From an uncultured Anaerolineales bacterium (lineage in GTDB: Bacteria; Chloroflexota; Anaerolineae; Anaerolineales; Villigracilaceae): a DNA stretch of 34,909 bases. The stretch covers positions 1-34,909 of the forward strand of contig CAIQQN010000025.1 in the NCBI GenBank assembly GCA_903873975.1. Reading direction: 5' to 3'. The notes beneath the pieces were generated by a model that was not told where the DNA came from, did no database searches, and saw only the letters and a list, made by a program, of their open reading frames with translations. A program made the position numbers and the translations under genes. Below are positions 29,570 to 33,512 of this stretch, piece after piece (within the stretch, counting starts at the first letter, position 1; each line of letters starts with the position of its first letter).

Positions 29570-31108
29570 TTACTTCTTCTTTCTCATCACTTGATATAAA
29601 GGCTGGAGCCGTTTATACATCTGCTTATACACACCGTAATACAACTCATCATAGTACTCATGGACTTTGGCATCCGGCTCGAATGTGTCACGAATACGCG
29701 TCATCGTCAGAATGGCGGTCGTAAAATCGGGGTGGACTCCGATTCCCACTGCCGCATCCATGGCCGCACCGAGACCCGACGCCTCATACAAGTGCGGACG
29801 GGAAGCCGGCAATCCGAACACATCCGCAGTTAATTGCATGGCAGCCTCGGATTGACTCCCACCGCCCGCCACGCGCAATTCAGTAATGGGCACGCCGGAG
29901 CGTTTGGCAGTTCGCTCGGCTCCCTCACGCAGGGCATAGGCCAATCCTTCCAGGATGGCGCGGTAGATGTGGGCACGGGTGGTCACGTCGCTGAAGCCAA
30001 TGATGGCCCCGCGCGCCTCCGGGCCGGGGAAAACCAGGCCCGGCGACCAGTATGGCTGGAGCACAAGACCCTCCGAGCCGGGCGGAACGGATCGCACCAG
30101 GTCATCGAAGAGCGCTTCAGGTTCGATGCCCTGCGTTTCGGCCAGCCTCTGCTCACGCAAGCCGAATTCCTGCTTGAACCAGGTTACCATCCAGTAGCCG
30201 CGGTAGATCTGGATCTCAAAACTATACTCTCCGGGCACAGCCGCCGGATAGGGCGGGATGAGCGGGATAACTTCGATGTACTTCTTGTGAGTGGTATTGA
30301 TGGTGGCGGTCGTACCATAACTTAGGCAGCCGATATGCGATTCCAGACATCCTGCGCCGAGCACCTCGGTGGCCTTGTCAGCGGCAGCAGCGATGAGCGG
30401 CAGTCCCGCCGGTAAGCCGGTGGCGGCAGACGCCCCGGGTGTGATCTCACCTAATATGGACGCAACCGGCACGAGGTCAGGCAGGAGTGCTTTGTCCATC
30501 GGTACGGCCTGCCATTTCCAGCCCCAGGAGGCTTCCCAGTCCTGCTTCTTGTAATCGAACGGGATGTACCCGACCTGACAGCCGACCGAGTCCACGAATT
30601 TGCCGACCAGCCGATACGTCAGGTAACCGGAGAGGAACAGATACTTGTGCGTGGCCTTCCAGATTTCAGGCTGGTTCGTGCGCAGCCAGTTGGCCTCAGC
30701 CTCCGCCTGGAGATAGGCCACTGTCTCTGAAGCCCCGGTAAGTTTGAAGGCCATGCCCCATAGGCCGCTGAGCGGCTTCAGCCCCTCAGTGCGGCGCTGG
30801 TCGAGCCAGTGAATAGCTGGGCGCAACGGTTTGCCCTCTTTATCGACGTTGATGAGAGTGCTGCGCTGGGTCGTCAGCGCCACAGCAGCGATGGCGGACT
30901 TGTCCACACCCTGCGCCCACAATCCCTGGCAGGCTTCGCAGACAGCCTTCCAGAAGACTTCGGGGTCTTGCTCGGCCAAACCGGGGGCGGTGGAGTAGTA
31001 TGGCTCGATGGTGGTCCGGGACTTGTAAAGCAAATTTCCGCGCGGGTCAAACACGAGGGCACGCACAGATTGTGTGCCATTGTCGATGGCAAGCAGATTT
31101 TCAGGCAT
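29570..31108 (-). CDS. FGGY-family carbohydrate kinase
   Basis: [67 protein letters not shown]...[25 protein letters not shown]. Confidence 0.93.
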
Positions 31109-31131
31109 GACTTCTCCTTATGATTGCGAAA

Positions 31132-31893
31132 TTACTTCGCCATTTTGCGCGGGAAGCCAAATATCGCTCCCTGCGTAGGTCGAACCATATATGCACACTG
31201 CTCCAGAGTGAAATAGGTGCCGCGCAGTCTGCTATGGGCTTTCCGATATTCCTTGGCATGTTCTTCTGACCAGAAGAAAACTGAATTCCGTCAGAAGGCA
31301 TCGATGATGCTTGGGTCTTCCAGCCGGGCGAAGTTAACCATTGGAACAAAGACAAGTGGATCGGCCTCTGTCTCGGCCATTTTGTAATGCAAGTCGCTGT
31401 CTATCTGGATATGAATCGGTTGACCGCAATGGACGCAAGAAGTCTGGATGGAGAAGGTCAGGTATTCCTGGCGGAGCTGCCCTTGCACGAAGGGCGTCGC
31501 AATCGCGTCGACCGCTCAGGCTGCGTAGAGTTCTTCTCCCGAACTGAACGTGACCTGGTGCGGGGTTGTATCCACCGTCACCGGGTAGGCCCAAACCACC
31601 TCCCCCAGCGGGTTCCGGAATAAGAAGGTCATGCCTTGCTCCAACTCATCGAGGATGGCGGTCACCCGTTCGAGTGGCAGGTCGAATTGTTCGGCGATCC
31701 ACAGAGGTGGGATCGGCCGGCCATAGCGCGGCAATTCGCGCACCACCAGGTCACGAATGCGATGGTGATCCTGACTCATGAACTTAATAGCGCGGTTGCC
31801 GCCTTCAGCACTGCGTTCCACCTCACCGTGCCAAATCAGCGGCGGCACGGGTAGCAGATAATGCCACATACCAAGGAGAAGCATTTTATCCAT
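31132..31893 (-). CDS. MerB-like (alkylmercury lyase family) protein, probable selenoprotein with two Sec (TGA) codons
   Basis: Continuous frame with two internal TGA (31516-31518, 31291-31293) and TAA stop at 31132: ...TPHQVTFSSGEELYAAUAVDAIATPFVQGQLRQEYLTFSIQTSCVHCGQPIHIQIDSDLHYKMAETEADPLVFVPMVNFARLEDPSIIDAFURNSVFFWSEEHAKEYRKAHSRLRGTYFTLEQCAYMVRPTQGAIFGFPRKMAK*. The U residues align with MerB Cys96 (LYAWCALD) and Cys159 (SFCCHVHFF). Confidence 0.85.
31261..31278 (-). promoter_or_regulatory. Candidate bacterial SECIS hairpin for UGA-2
   Basis: UUCUUCU-GGUC-AGAAGAA beginning 12 nt after the UGA; apical loop at about 19 nt starting with GGU. Confidence 0.68.
31479..31495 (-). promoter_or_regulatory. 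Candidate bacterial SECIS hairpin for UGA-1
   Basis: GCCCUU-CGUGC-AAGGGC beginning 20 nt after the UGA; apical loop at about 26 nt with G in the first two loop positions. Confidence 0.65.
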
Positions 31894-31928
31894 GGCACCA
31901 CAAGAACAGGAAAACCGTGGTCTCCAAA

Positions 31929-33512
31929 TTATAGCCGATATGATTTTTTCAAGAGATCCTGATAGGCTTCGACTTCTTTCCGCCAGCGGGTATCGTCCCA
32001 GCCGAGGTCGGGCTGGGTGAGGAGGCGGATGCGAGCCATGTGGTCCTGCCCGCCATTGGGCAGCAGCAGCCCCAGGCGGACACGGCGCAGAAGCAGGTCG
32101 TCAAGGTGGACAACGCCCTCTCCATGCGCCGCCTGGCGTAGTTCCGACCAAACGTAATTTGTACTGGGGATGGCTTCCATATCTTCGCCCTTCGCACAAA
32201 AGGACGTGGAGGCGTTCACGCCGTAACGCGCTATCAAGCGCAAGCACTGGCTGGGAGGCAGGTGTGTGTTGGCAAGAAGTGCTTCGGCTTCCGGTGGGAG
32301 AGGGTCGAGCACAGGAACGTCCGGGTCGTAGGGGATGTGCCCGAGGTGGCGGCGGACAGCTTTCAGGGCGTCGCGCGCCATGATACGGAAGGTGGTTAGC
32401 TTGCCGCCGCTGACGGTCAGCAAGCCGTTCTCATCCCAGAGTACGTGCTCGCGCGATTCCTTCGAAGGGTTGGCTTTGCCGGTATTCACCACCGGGCGGA
32501 TGCCCGAGAAGGTGGCAATCACATCAGTGAAGGTCAGTTCCAGCGCTGGGAAAACCGCCTTCAGGCCATCCAGCAGGTATGCAGCCTCGGCATTGCTGAT
32601 GGACGGGTCAGTAACCAGGTTCTGTCCCTGGTCCACGTCGGTGGTGCCAAAAATGACCGCACCCTCCCATGGCAGGACAAAGACCGGACGTCCATCCTGA
32701 GGGTGCAGGAAGGTGATGGCGCGCGTCAACGGGAAGCGCTGGAATGGGAAAACCAAATGACTGCCGCGCAGCGGGCGCAGGCGGGGAGCTTTACCGATAT
32801 CCCCGCGCAATTTGTCCGCCCAAGCCCCGGTGGCGTTGATCACCACCCGGCCTTCGACTTCGACCTGCCGGTCTGACTCTCCAGAGGCGTCGCGCAGGAT
32901 GACGCCGCACACCTGCCCGATATTTGTCTTGAGCAGCGATTCAACCCGCGCATAGTTCAACGCCAGTCCGCCACCTGACACCGATTCGCGAATCAGACGT
33001 AAGACGAGCCGGGCGTCGTCGGTCTGGGCGTCAAAAAATCGGAAACCGCCGCGCATGGCAGACGTGGTTATCAGAGGGCAGAGTTCACGCATATCTTCCA
33101 CGTCATACGAGCGGTGCGACCACTGGCGTGCCATCAAGTCATAGACAATCAGCCCGGCCCCAAAAACCCAACCCGGCATGTGGTCGCCATCCAGGCAGGG
33201 GTAGAGAAAGCCCAGGCGATTGACCAGCCCGCGGCCTTGTTTGAGAAGGTACTCGCGCTCGGTGACGGATTCGAGCGTGACCCGCAACTGGGCATTCTTC
33301 AGGTAGCGCATCCCACCGTGGACAAGTTTCGACGATCTTGAAGATGTACCCGAGGCGAAATCGTCCGCATCGACCAGCACCACCTTCAGCCCGGCGTGCA
33401 CACACTGGCGCAGGATCCCCGCGCCGGTGATGCCGCCGCCAATGATGATCACATCCCATACCTGACTAAGATCCGACCAGGCCCGGTCACGCCAACCTTT
33501 TATCCAATCCAT
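31929..33512 (-). CDS. glpD: Glycerol-3-phosphate dehydrogenase-like FAD oxidoreductase
   Basis: WDVIIIGGGITGAGILRQCVHAGLKVVLVDADDFASGTSSRSSKLVHGGMRYLKNAQLRVTLESVTEREYLL; RPLRGSHLVFP; GRPVFVLPWEGAVIFGTTDVD. Confidence 0.93.
   Translation of the reverse strand: MDWIKGWRDRAWSDLSQVWDVIIIGGGITGAGILRQCVHAGLKVVLVDADDFASGTSSRSSKLVHGGMRYLKNAQLRVTLESVTEREYLLKQGRGLVNRLGFLYPCLDGDHMPGWVFGAGLIVYDLMARQWSHRSYDVEDMRELCPLITTSAMRGGFRFFDAQTDDARLVLRLIRESVSGGGLALNYARVESLLKTNIGQVCGVILRDASGESDRQVEVEGRVVINATGAWADKLRGDIGKAPRLRPLRGSHLVFPFQRFPLTRAITFLHPQDGRPVFVLPWEGAVIFGTTDVDQGQNLVTDPSISNAEAAYLLDGLKAVFPALELTFTDVIATFSGIRPVVNTGKANPSKESREHVLWDENGLLTVSGGKLTTFRIMARDALKAVRRHLGHIPYDPDVPVLDPLPPEAEALLANTHLPPSQCLRLIARYGVNASTSFCAKGEDMEAIPSTNYVWSELRQAAHGEGVVHLDDLLLRRVRLGLLLPNGGQDHMARIRLLTQPDLGWDDTRWRKEVEAYQDLLKKSYRL

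Follow-up and report, generated by a model that had tools for sequence, protein, structure and literature searches.

MerB is the well-established enzyme for cleavage of the mercury-carbon bond, and Asp99 is needed for its lyase reaction. The catalytic residues in solved MerB structures are Cys96, Asp99 and Cys159 (PMC4525700; PMC8261052). SaoL, a MerB-like selenoprotein with one selenocysteine (Sec) in a 'CU' motif, is the sole MerB-like entry in a 2026 review, and the SAO system is proposed for unspecified organometals (PMC13188914). The gene described here lies in a 34,909-nucleotide stretch of DNA from an uncultured Anaerolineales bacterium (contig CAIQQN010000025.1), referred to below as the window, and likely encodes a lyase of the MerB fold with selenols, Sec126 and Sec201, in place of both catalytic thiols; each UGA would be recoded by its own hairpin just downstream. 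Its family is probably unnamed so far, and the double-Sec MerB branch apparently undescribed: no NCBIfam model cut-off (June 2026) was passed by the two family members tested, and no double-Sec MerB was found in the literature searched, although a mention in Haft & Gwadz 2023 or Haft & Tolstoy 2025 is not excluded.

Two in-frame UGA codons in a MerB-family gene

The gene (31893-31132, minus strand) runs from an ATG start to a TAA stop at 31132-31134, encodes 253 residues by read-through translation, and is interrupted by exactly two stops, both TGA, spaced 75 codons apart. In a phmmer alignment with solved MerB chains, the first TGA (31516-31518, minus strand; Sec126) falls on Cys96 (LYAA[U]AVD against LYAWCALD), and the second (31291-31293, minus strand; Sec201) on Cys159 (AF[U]RNSVFFWS against SFC..HVHFFAS). 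Asp99 is kept as Asp129 (31507-31509, minus strand), which is invariant in 98/98 family members, and the structural Cys117 as Cys153 (31435-31437, minus strand), an ordinary Cys codon in the window gene and Cys in 97/98 members. Within the canonical Cys96-Asp99-Cys159 set, Asp99 is therefore met and both Cys are replaced by TGA/Sec. The two Sec positions, at both catalytic Cys columns, are supported by the sequence; the actual incorporation of Sec is inferred.

The homology and fold are likewise supported. The protein matches Pfam MerB (PF03243) with 63.7 bits (2.2e-17; gathering score 27), and an AlphaFold2 model built on a 79-sequence alignment (pLDDT 93.5, pTM 0.91) gives eleven PDB matches by Foldseek with E below 0.001, all of them MerB or MerB2 (best E 1.7e-12; target TM 0.74-0.82 for crystal structures and 0.62 for the NMR model). 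The model predicts a MerB fold with confidence, and by domain and fold together the protein belongs to the MerB superfamily PF03243. A first-pass annotation, made from sequence alone, had claimed a single minus-strand frame with two TGAs 75 codons apart and a TAA at 31132, MerB-like flanks placing the TGAs at C96 and C159 with Asp99 retained, and splitting of the gene by annotation. The first claim held on read-through translation, the second on alignment with solved MerB and Pfam, and the third also held, in that standard annotation breaks the ORF at the two internal UGA codons.

The family comprises 98 aligned members from genome collections, of which 83 are distinct at the DNA level. Of 97 relatives retrieved from 84,980 species genomes, 80 were kept; because FFWSEEH, one of the two seeds of this search (the other being an N-terminal motif), is the SECIS-encoded peptide itself, the search carries a caveat of bias. 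HMM searches of 396 class and 400 phylum genomes, which are independent of this peptide, gave 16 strong relatives and 2 more (18 with the window gene included), all of them with two or more TGAs, in agreement with the seeded search. One additional relative, in genome G019, likewise has two TGAs. Overall, TGA occupies both columns in 96/98 members from independent assemblies, which rules out chance and sequencing error. The sole exceptions, L078 and L094, have TGC at column 126 and TGA at column 201, so that among distinct homologs the first codon is TGA in 81/83 and TGC in 2/83, and the second is TGA in 83/83; Cys at both columns was found in 0/98 members. The motifs at the two Sec sites are AAU and FU, and Trp208 is invariant in aligned members. 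Additional stops lie nearly all in the last few residues and are real terminators (mixed TGA, TAG and TAA), the truncated frame of L074 being an exception to this C-terminal placement. In the tree, the double-Sec set forms one clade (support 100/99), with weak outgroup placement, and the two members with Cys126 branch from within it, likely as reversions.

The labelled carriers are all metagenome-assembled genomes, with labels including Chloroflexi/Anaerolineae, Deltaproteobacteria/Desulfobacterales, Acidobacteria, Nitrospirae, Spirochaetes, Rokuibacteriota and KSB1. Its members come from uncultured bacteria of several phyla (Chloroflexota, Desulfobacterota/'Deltaproteobacteria', Acidobacteriota, Nitrospirota and others). 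Selection on these genes is supported by sequence: in 25 pairs of moderate relatedness, purifying selection is equal across the three segments that the TGAs delimit, with a median dN/dS of 0.13 upstream of TGA126, 0.16 from there to TGA201 and 0.14 downstream of it. TGA is also the terminator of 36/83 family genes, and a normal terminator in 8/29 chosen window ORFs.

SECIS hairpins and selenocysteine machinery

The bSECIS model calls for a stem of 4-16 bp, a loop of 3-9 nt, a G within the first two loop positions, a spacing of 16-37 nt and an energy of -7.5 kcal/mol or lower (PMC13188914). Each TGA of the window gene is followed by a candidate, CCCUU-CGUGC-AAGGG (31480-31494, minus strand) with its loop 26 nt past TGA126, and UUCUUCU-GGUC-AGAAGAA (31261-31278, minus strand), which encodes FFWSEE and has its loop 19 nt past TGA201. 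Both satisfy the rules for stem, loop (CGUGC and GGUC), loop G and spacing. Segment medians of the folding energy are -16.2 and -10.9 kcal/mol for the two hairpins, with some single sequences weaker than -7.5 kcal/mol when the 48-nt segments are folded alone. Rfam at gathering score gave no match in the window.

Conservation of these hairpins across the family is strong. The hairpin 1 loop is identical in 81/81 Sec126 sequences, with 5/5 base pairs in 80/81, and hairpin 2 keeps 7/7 base pairs and the GGUC loop in 83/83. The covariation score was reached by 0/500 shuffles for either hairpin. In hairpin 1, a compensatory change turns a C-G pair into U-A in L089, and the pair one step further out varies among G-C, U-A and C-G; the closing pair of hairpin 2 varies among U-A, C-G and A-U once single-Sec relatives are included. 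Of 60 positions compared for synonymous freezing, all with degenerate codons and a conserved amino acid, the ten hairpin codons take precisely the ten top ranks, with codon identities of 0.92-1.00; no other position exceeds 0.80. The Ser209 codon, for example, is TCA in 79/83 sequences, whereas TCA accounts for about 9% of the serine codons at other places in family genes. Of the two Cys126 members, L094 has lost hairpin 1 and kept hairpin 2, and L078 still has both. The hairpins are thus supported by sequence, and for comparative work on bacterial SECIS elements the family offers unusually clean data, which include a natural Cys revertant without the matching hairpin.

The Sec machinery is also supported. 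The source genome contains tRNA-Sec with anticodon TCA, SelA, SelD, and SelB matches on two contigs, apparently two parts of a single gene. The bacterial selenoprotein criteria are met (UGA at Cys columns, bSECIS, and selA/selB/selC/selD), Sec in the protein being inferred. Among carrier genomes, tRNA-Sec exceeds the gathering score in 18/19, and SelA is present in 15/16 carriers of the class sample. Because 339/396 genomes of the class have selA, its co-occurrence within the class is uninformative, and SelA in carriers can at most be read as consistent with Sec decoding, not as diagnostic of it. No SelA was found in carrier G387, whose family copy (L113/L128 and L088) is broken by Ns into two halves in different frames, possibly reflecting decay following loss of Sec decoding, or else incomplete assembly. 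As a separate observation, the selD gene of the source genome carries its own in-frame TGA (L130, G000:C190:12-800), and its product itself looks like a selenoprotein.

The further claim of the first-pass annotation, that both catalytic Cys are Sec, is supported, with incorporation inferred; checks that could have refuted it were run, and none went against it. The genome contains tRNA-Sec, selA, selB and the TGA-containing selD; homologs carry Cys or Sec at exactly the two columns; no relaxed selection was detected past the TGAs; and a misread TGC or TGT is excluded by the presence of in-frame TGA at the same columns in 81-83 of the 83 distinct sequences.

Genomic context, proposed chemistry and alternatives

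The window gene lies between GlpD-like and FGGY-kinase genes (flanks within 29570-33512). In five congeners these two genes are directly adjacent, with the order intact, glpD 74-84% identical and no MerB between them. This identifies the window gene as a roughly 0.8-kb insertion, and its acquisition via horizontal transfer is inferred as likely. The first-pass mention of 'this operon', a glp-like one, is accordingly uninformative about the gene, and a function derived from the operon (GlpD, FGGY kinase, FAD-linked oxidase) was rejected because the five congeners keep glpD-kinase without the gene. Neighbour clustering across 83 loci showed no generally conserved partner genes, the gene being usually alone; recurrent neighbours are a MarR-like regulator directly upstream (7 loci), a MerR-like regulator directly upstream (6 loci) and a 4HBT thioesterase nearby (4 loci). 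The MerR-like regulators are those of L030, L038, L044, L046, L047 and L080, and inspection by eye showed that the Cys triad for Hg is not conserved in them. Viral or plasmid carriage was also considered and rejected: no viral contigs were found, and matches on plasmids were all distant (27-29% identity) and mostly annotated MerB or MerBA. MerA scores above cut-off in only 1/19 carrier genomes. Two MerA-like flavoprotein genes below cut-off (about 355 bits; G377:C15:55818-57368 and G356:C5:179536-181107) sit 110-145 bases from the tRNA-Sec gene in their genomes.

If the chemistry follows that of MerB, the cation of an organomercurial (R-Hg+) or similar organometal would be captured by the two selenolates, Asp129 would help to protonate the leaving carbanion, with proton transfer freeing R-H, and Hg(II) would stay between the two selenolates and Asp until passed to thiols; how it would be unloaded without MerA is unresolved. 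Mercury is held far more tightly by selenium than by sulfur. Compared with thiolates, selenolates are softer and more acidic, and the likely benefit would therefore be the capture of very low substrate levels, putatively in thiol- and sulfide-rich anoxic water. Cleavage of Hg-C bonds is faster with synthetic selone mimics than with thiones (PMC11639659), which makes the proposed chemistry plausible. That the protein cleaves metal-carbon bonds, that mercury is its substrate and that selenium brings an advantage are all inferred only. Against the favored reading stand the absence of biochemical or proteomic evidence, the absence of a mer operon context and the rarity of MerA in carriers, together with the MerR-like regulators that do not conserve the Cys triad, the missing SelA of G387 and the hairpins that fold more weakly than the model asks. 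A bolder reading, judged slightly less likely than not, is that a widespread bis-selenolate organometal lyase family in uncultured anaerobes provides a MerA-independent route for breakdown of methylmercury (or another organometal), one missed by mer-gene surveys because the gene is split at its UGAs and lacks the canonical Cys. If active, such enzymes could be an overlooked methylmercury sink in anoxic sediment and groundwater.

The best surviving alternative, considered unlikely, is that the same double-selenoprotein does not demethylate mercury, and either acts on another organometal or organometalloid substrate or serves mainly in tight binding of soft metals by its two selenolates. In its favor are the usual isolation of the gene without conserved neighbours, a clear MerA in just one of the 19 carriers, the identity of about 20% to MerB of known activity, and the fact that the SAO system is itself proposed for unspecified organometals (PMC13188914). 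Against it, the full catalytic set of two chalcogen residues and Asp99 is strictly kept (98/98 for Asp).

A second alternative, regarded as very unlikely, is that UGA126 or UGA201 is a regulated stop, with a truncated protein as the main product and Sec incorporation as minor read-through. Sec decoding usually competes with termination, which speaks for this possibility; however, selection is equally purifying before and after both TGAs, active-site residues lie on both sides, and a truncated 125-residue product would be without the catalytic site. Finally, a pseudogene, a base-calling error or a reassigned code in which TGA specifies another amino acid, any of which would fit the splitting of the ORF by gene annotation, is all but excluded, because the two codons are conserved at the same place in 83 distinct genes, dN/dS is about 0.14 (against a pseudogene or error), and TGA remains a normal terminator in both window ORFs and family genes.

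Comparison with SaoL, single-Sec relatives and MerB

The double-Sec, MerB-fold lyase favored here resembles SaoL (MerB-like organometallic lyase of the SAO system, NF040728) in being a MerB-like selenoprotein, but has two Sec, in AAU and FU motifs, in place of one in CU. The first-pass annotation had mentioned SaoL as a possible precedent for the family; identity with SaoL was rejected: NF040728 scores 51.3 bits for the window protein and 43 for a second member, against a cut-off of 140 bits, a shortfall large enough for the family to be taken as a separate double-Sec branch that is apparently undescribed. In the loci inspected, where neighbours were clustered and not searched with each Sao model, none was recognised as belonging to the SAO system.

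Chloroflexota also contain single-Sec MerB-like proteins (L116-L119, L122, L125, L126), which have Sec at the Cys159 column and the GGUC hairpin in the same place, but keep Cys at column 96 and form a separate clade. Three tested members reached no NCBIfam cut-off, and these proteins look like another undescribed single-Sec MerB-like group. Other Chloroflexota MerB-like genes (L115, L136-L143) have Cys at both columns.

Compared with MerB (PF03243; NF009710/NF033555; PDB 3f0o, 5c17), the window family shares the fold and columns 96, 99, 117 and 159. It differs in sequence, being only about 20% identical to MerB proteins whose activity is known and scoring far below the canonical MerB cut-offs in NCBIfam (58.2 of 193 bits for NF009710 and 45.6 of 200 bits for NF033555), in lacking a mer operon, and in an additional N-terminal segment of about 40 residues. 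It also differs in the replacement of Cys by Sec at columns 96 and 159. Such double-selenol kin of MerB, kept across phyla and accompanied by two frozen SECIS elements, amount to a natural experiment that may tell what selenium offers to an organometal lyase, with Sec at the catalytic columns in 96/98 family members and Cys in other MerB-like relatives.
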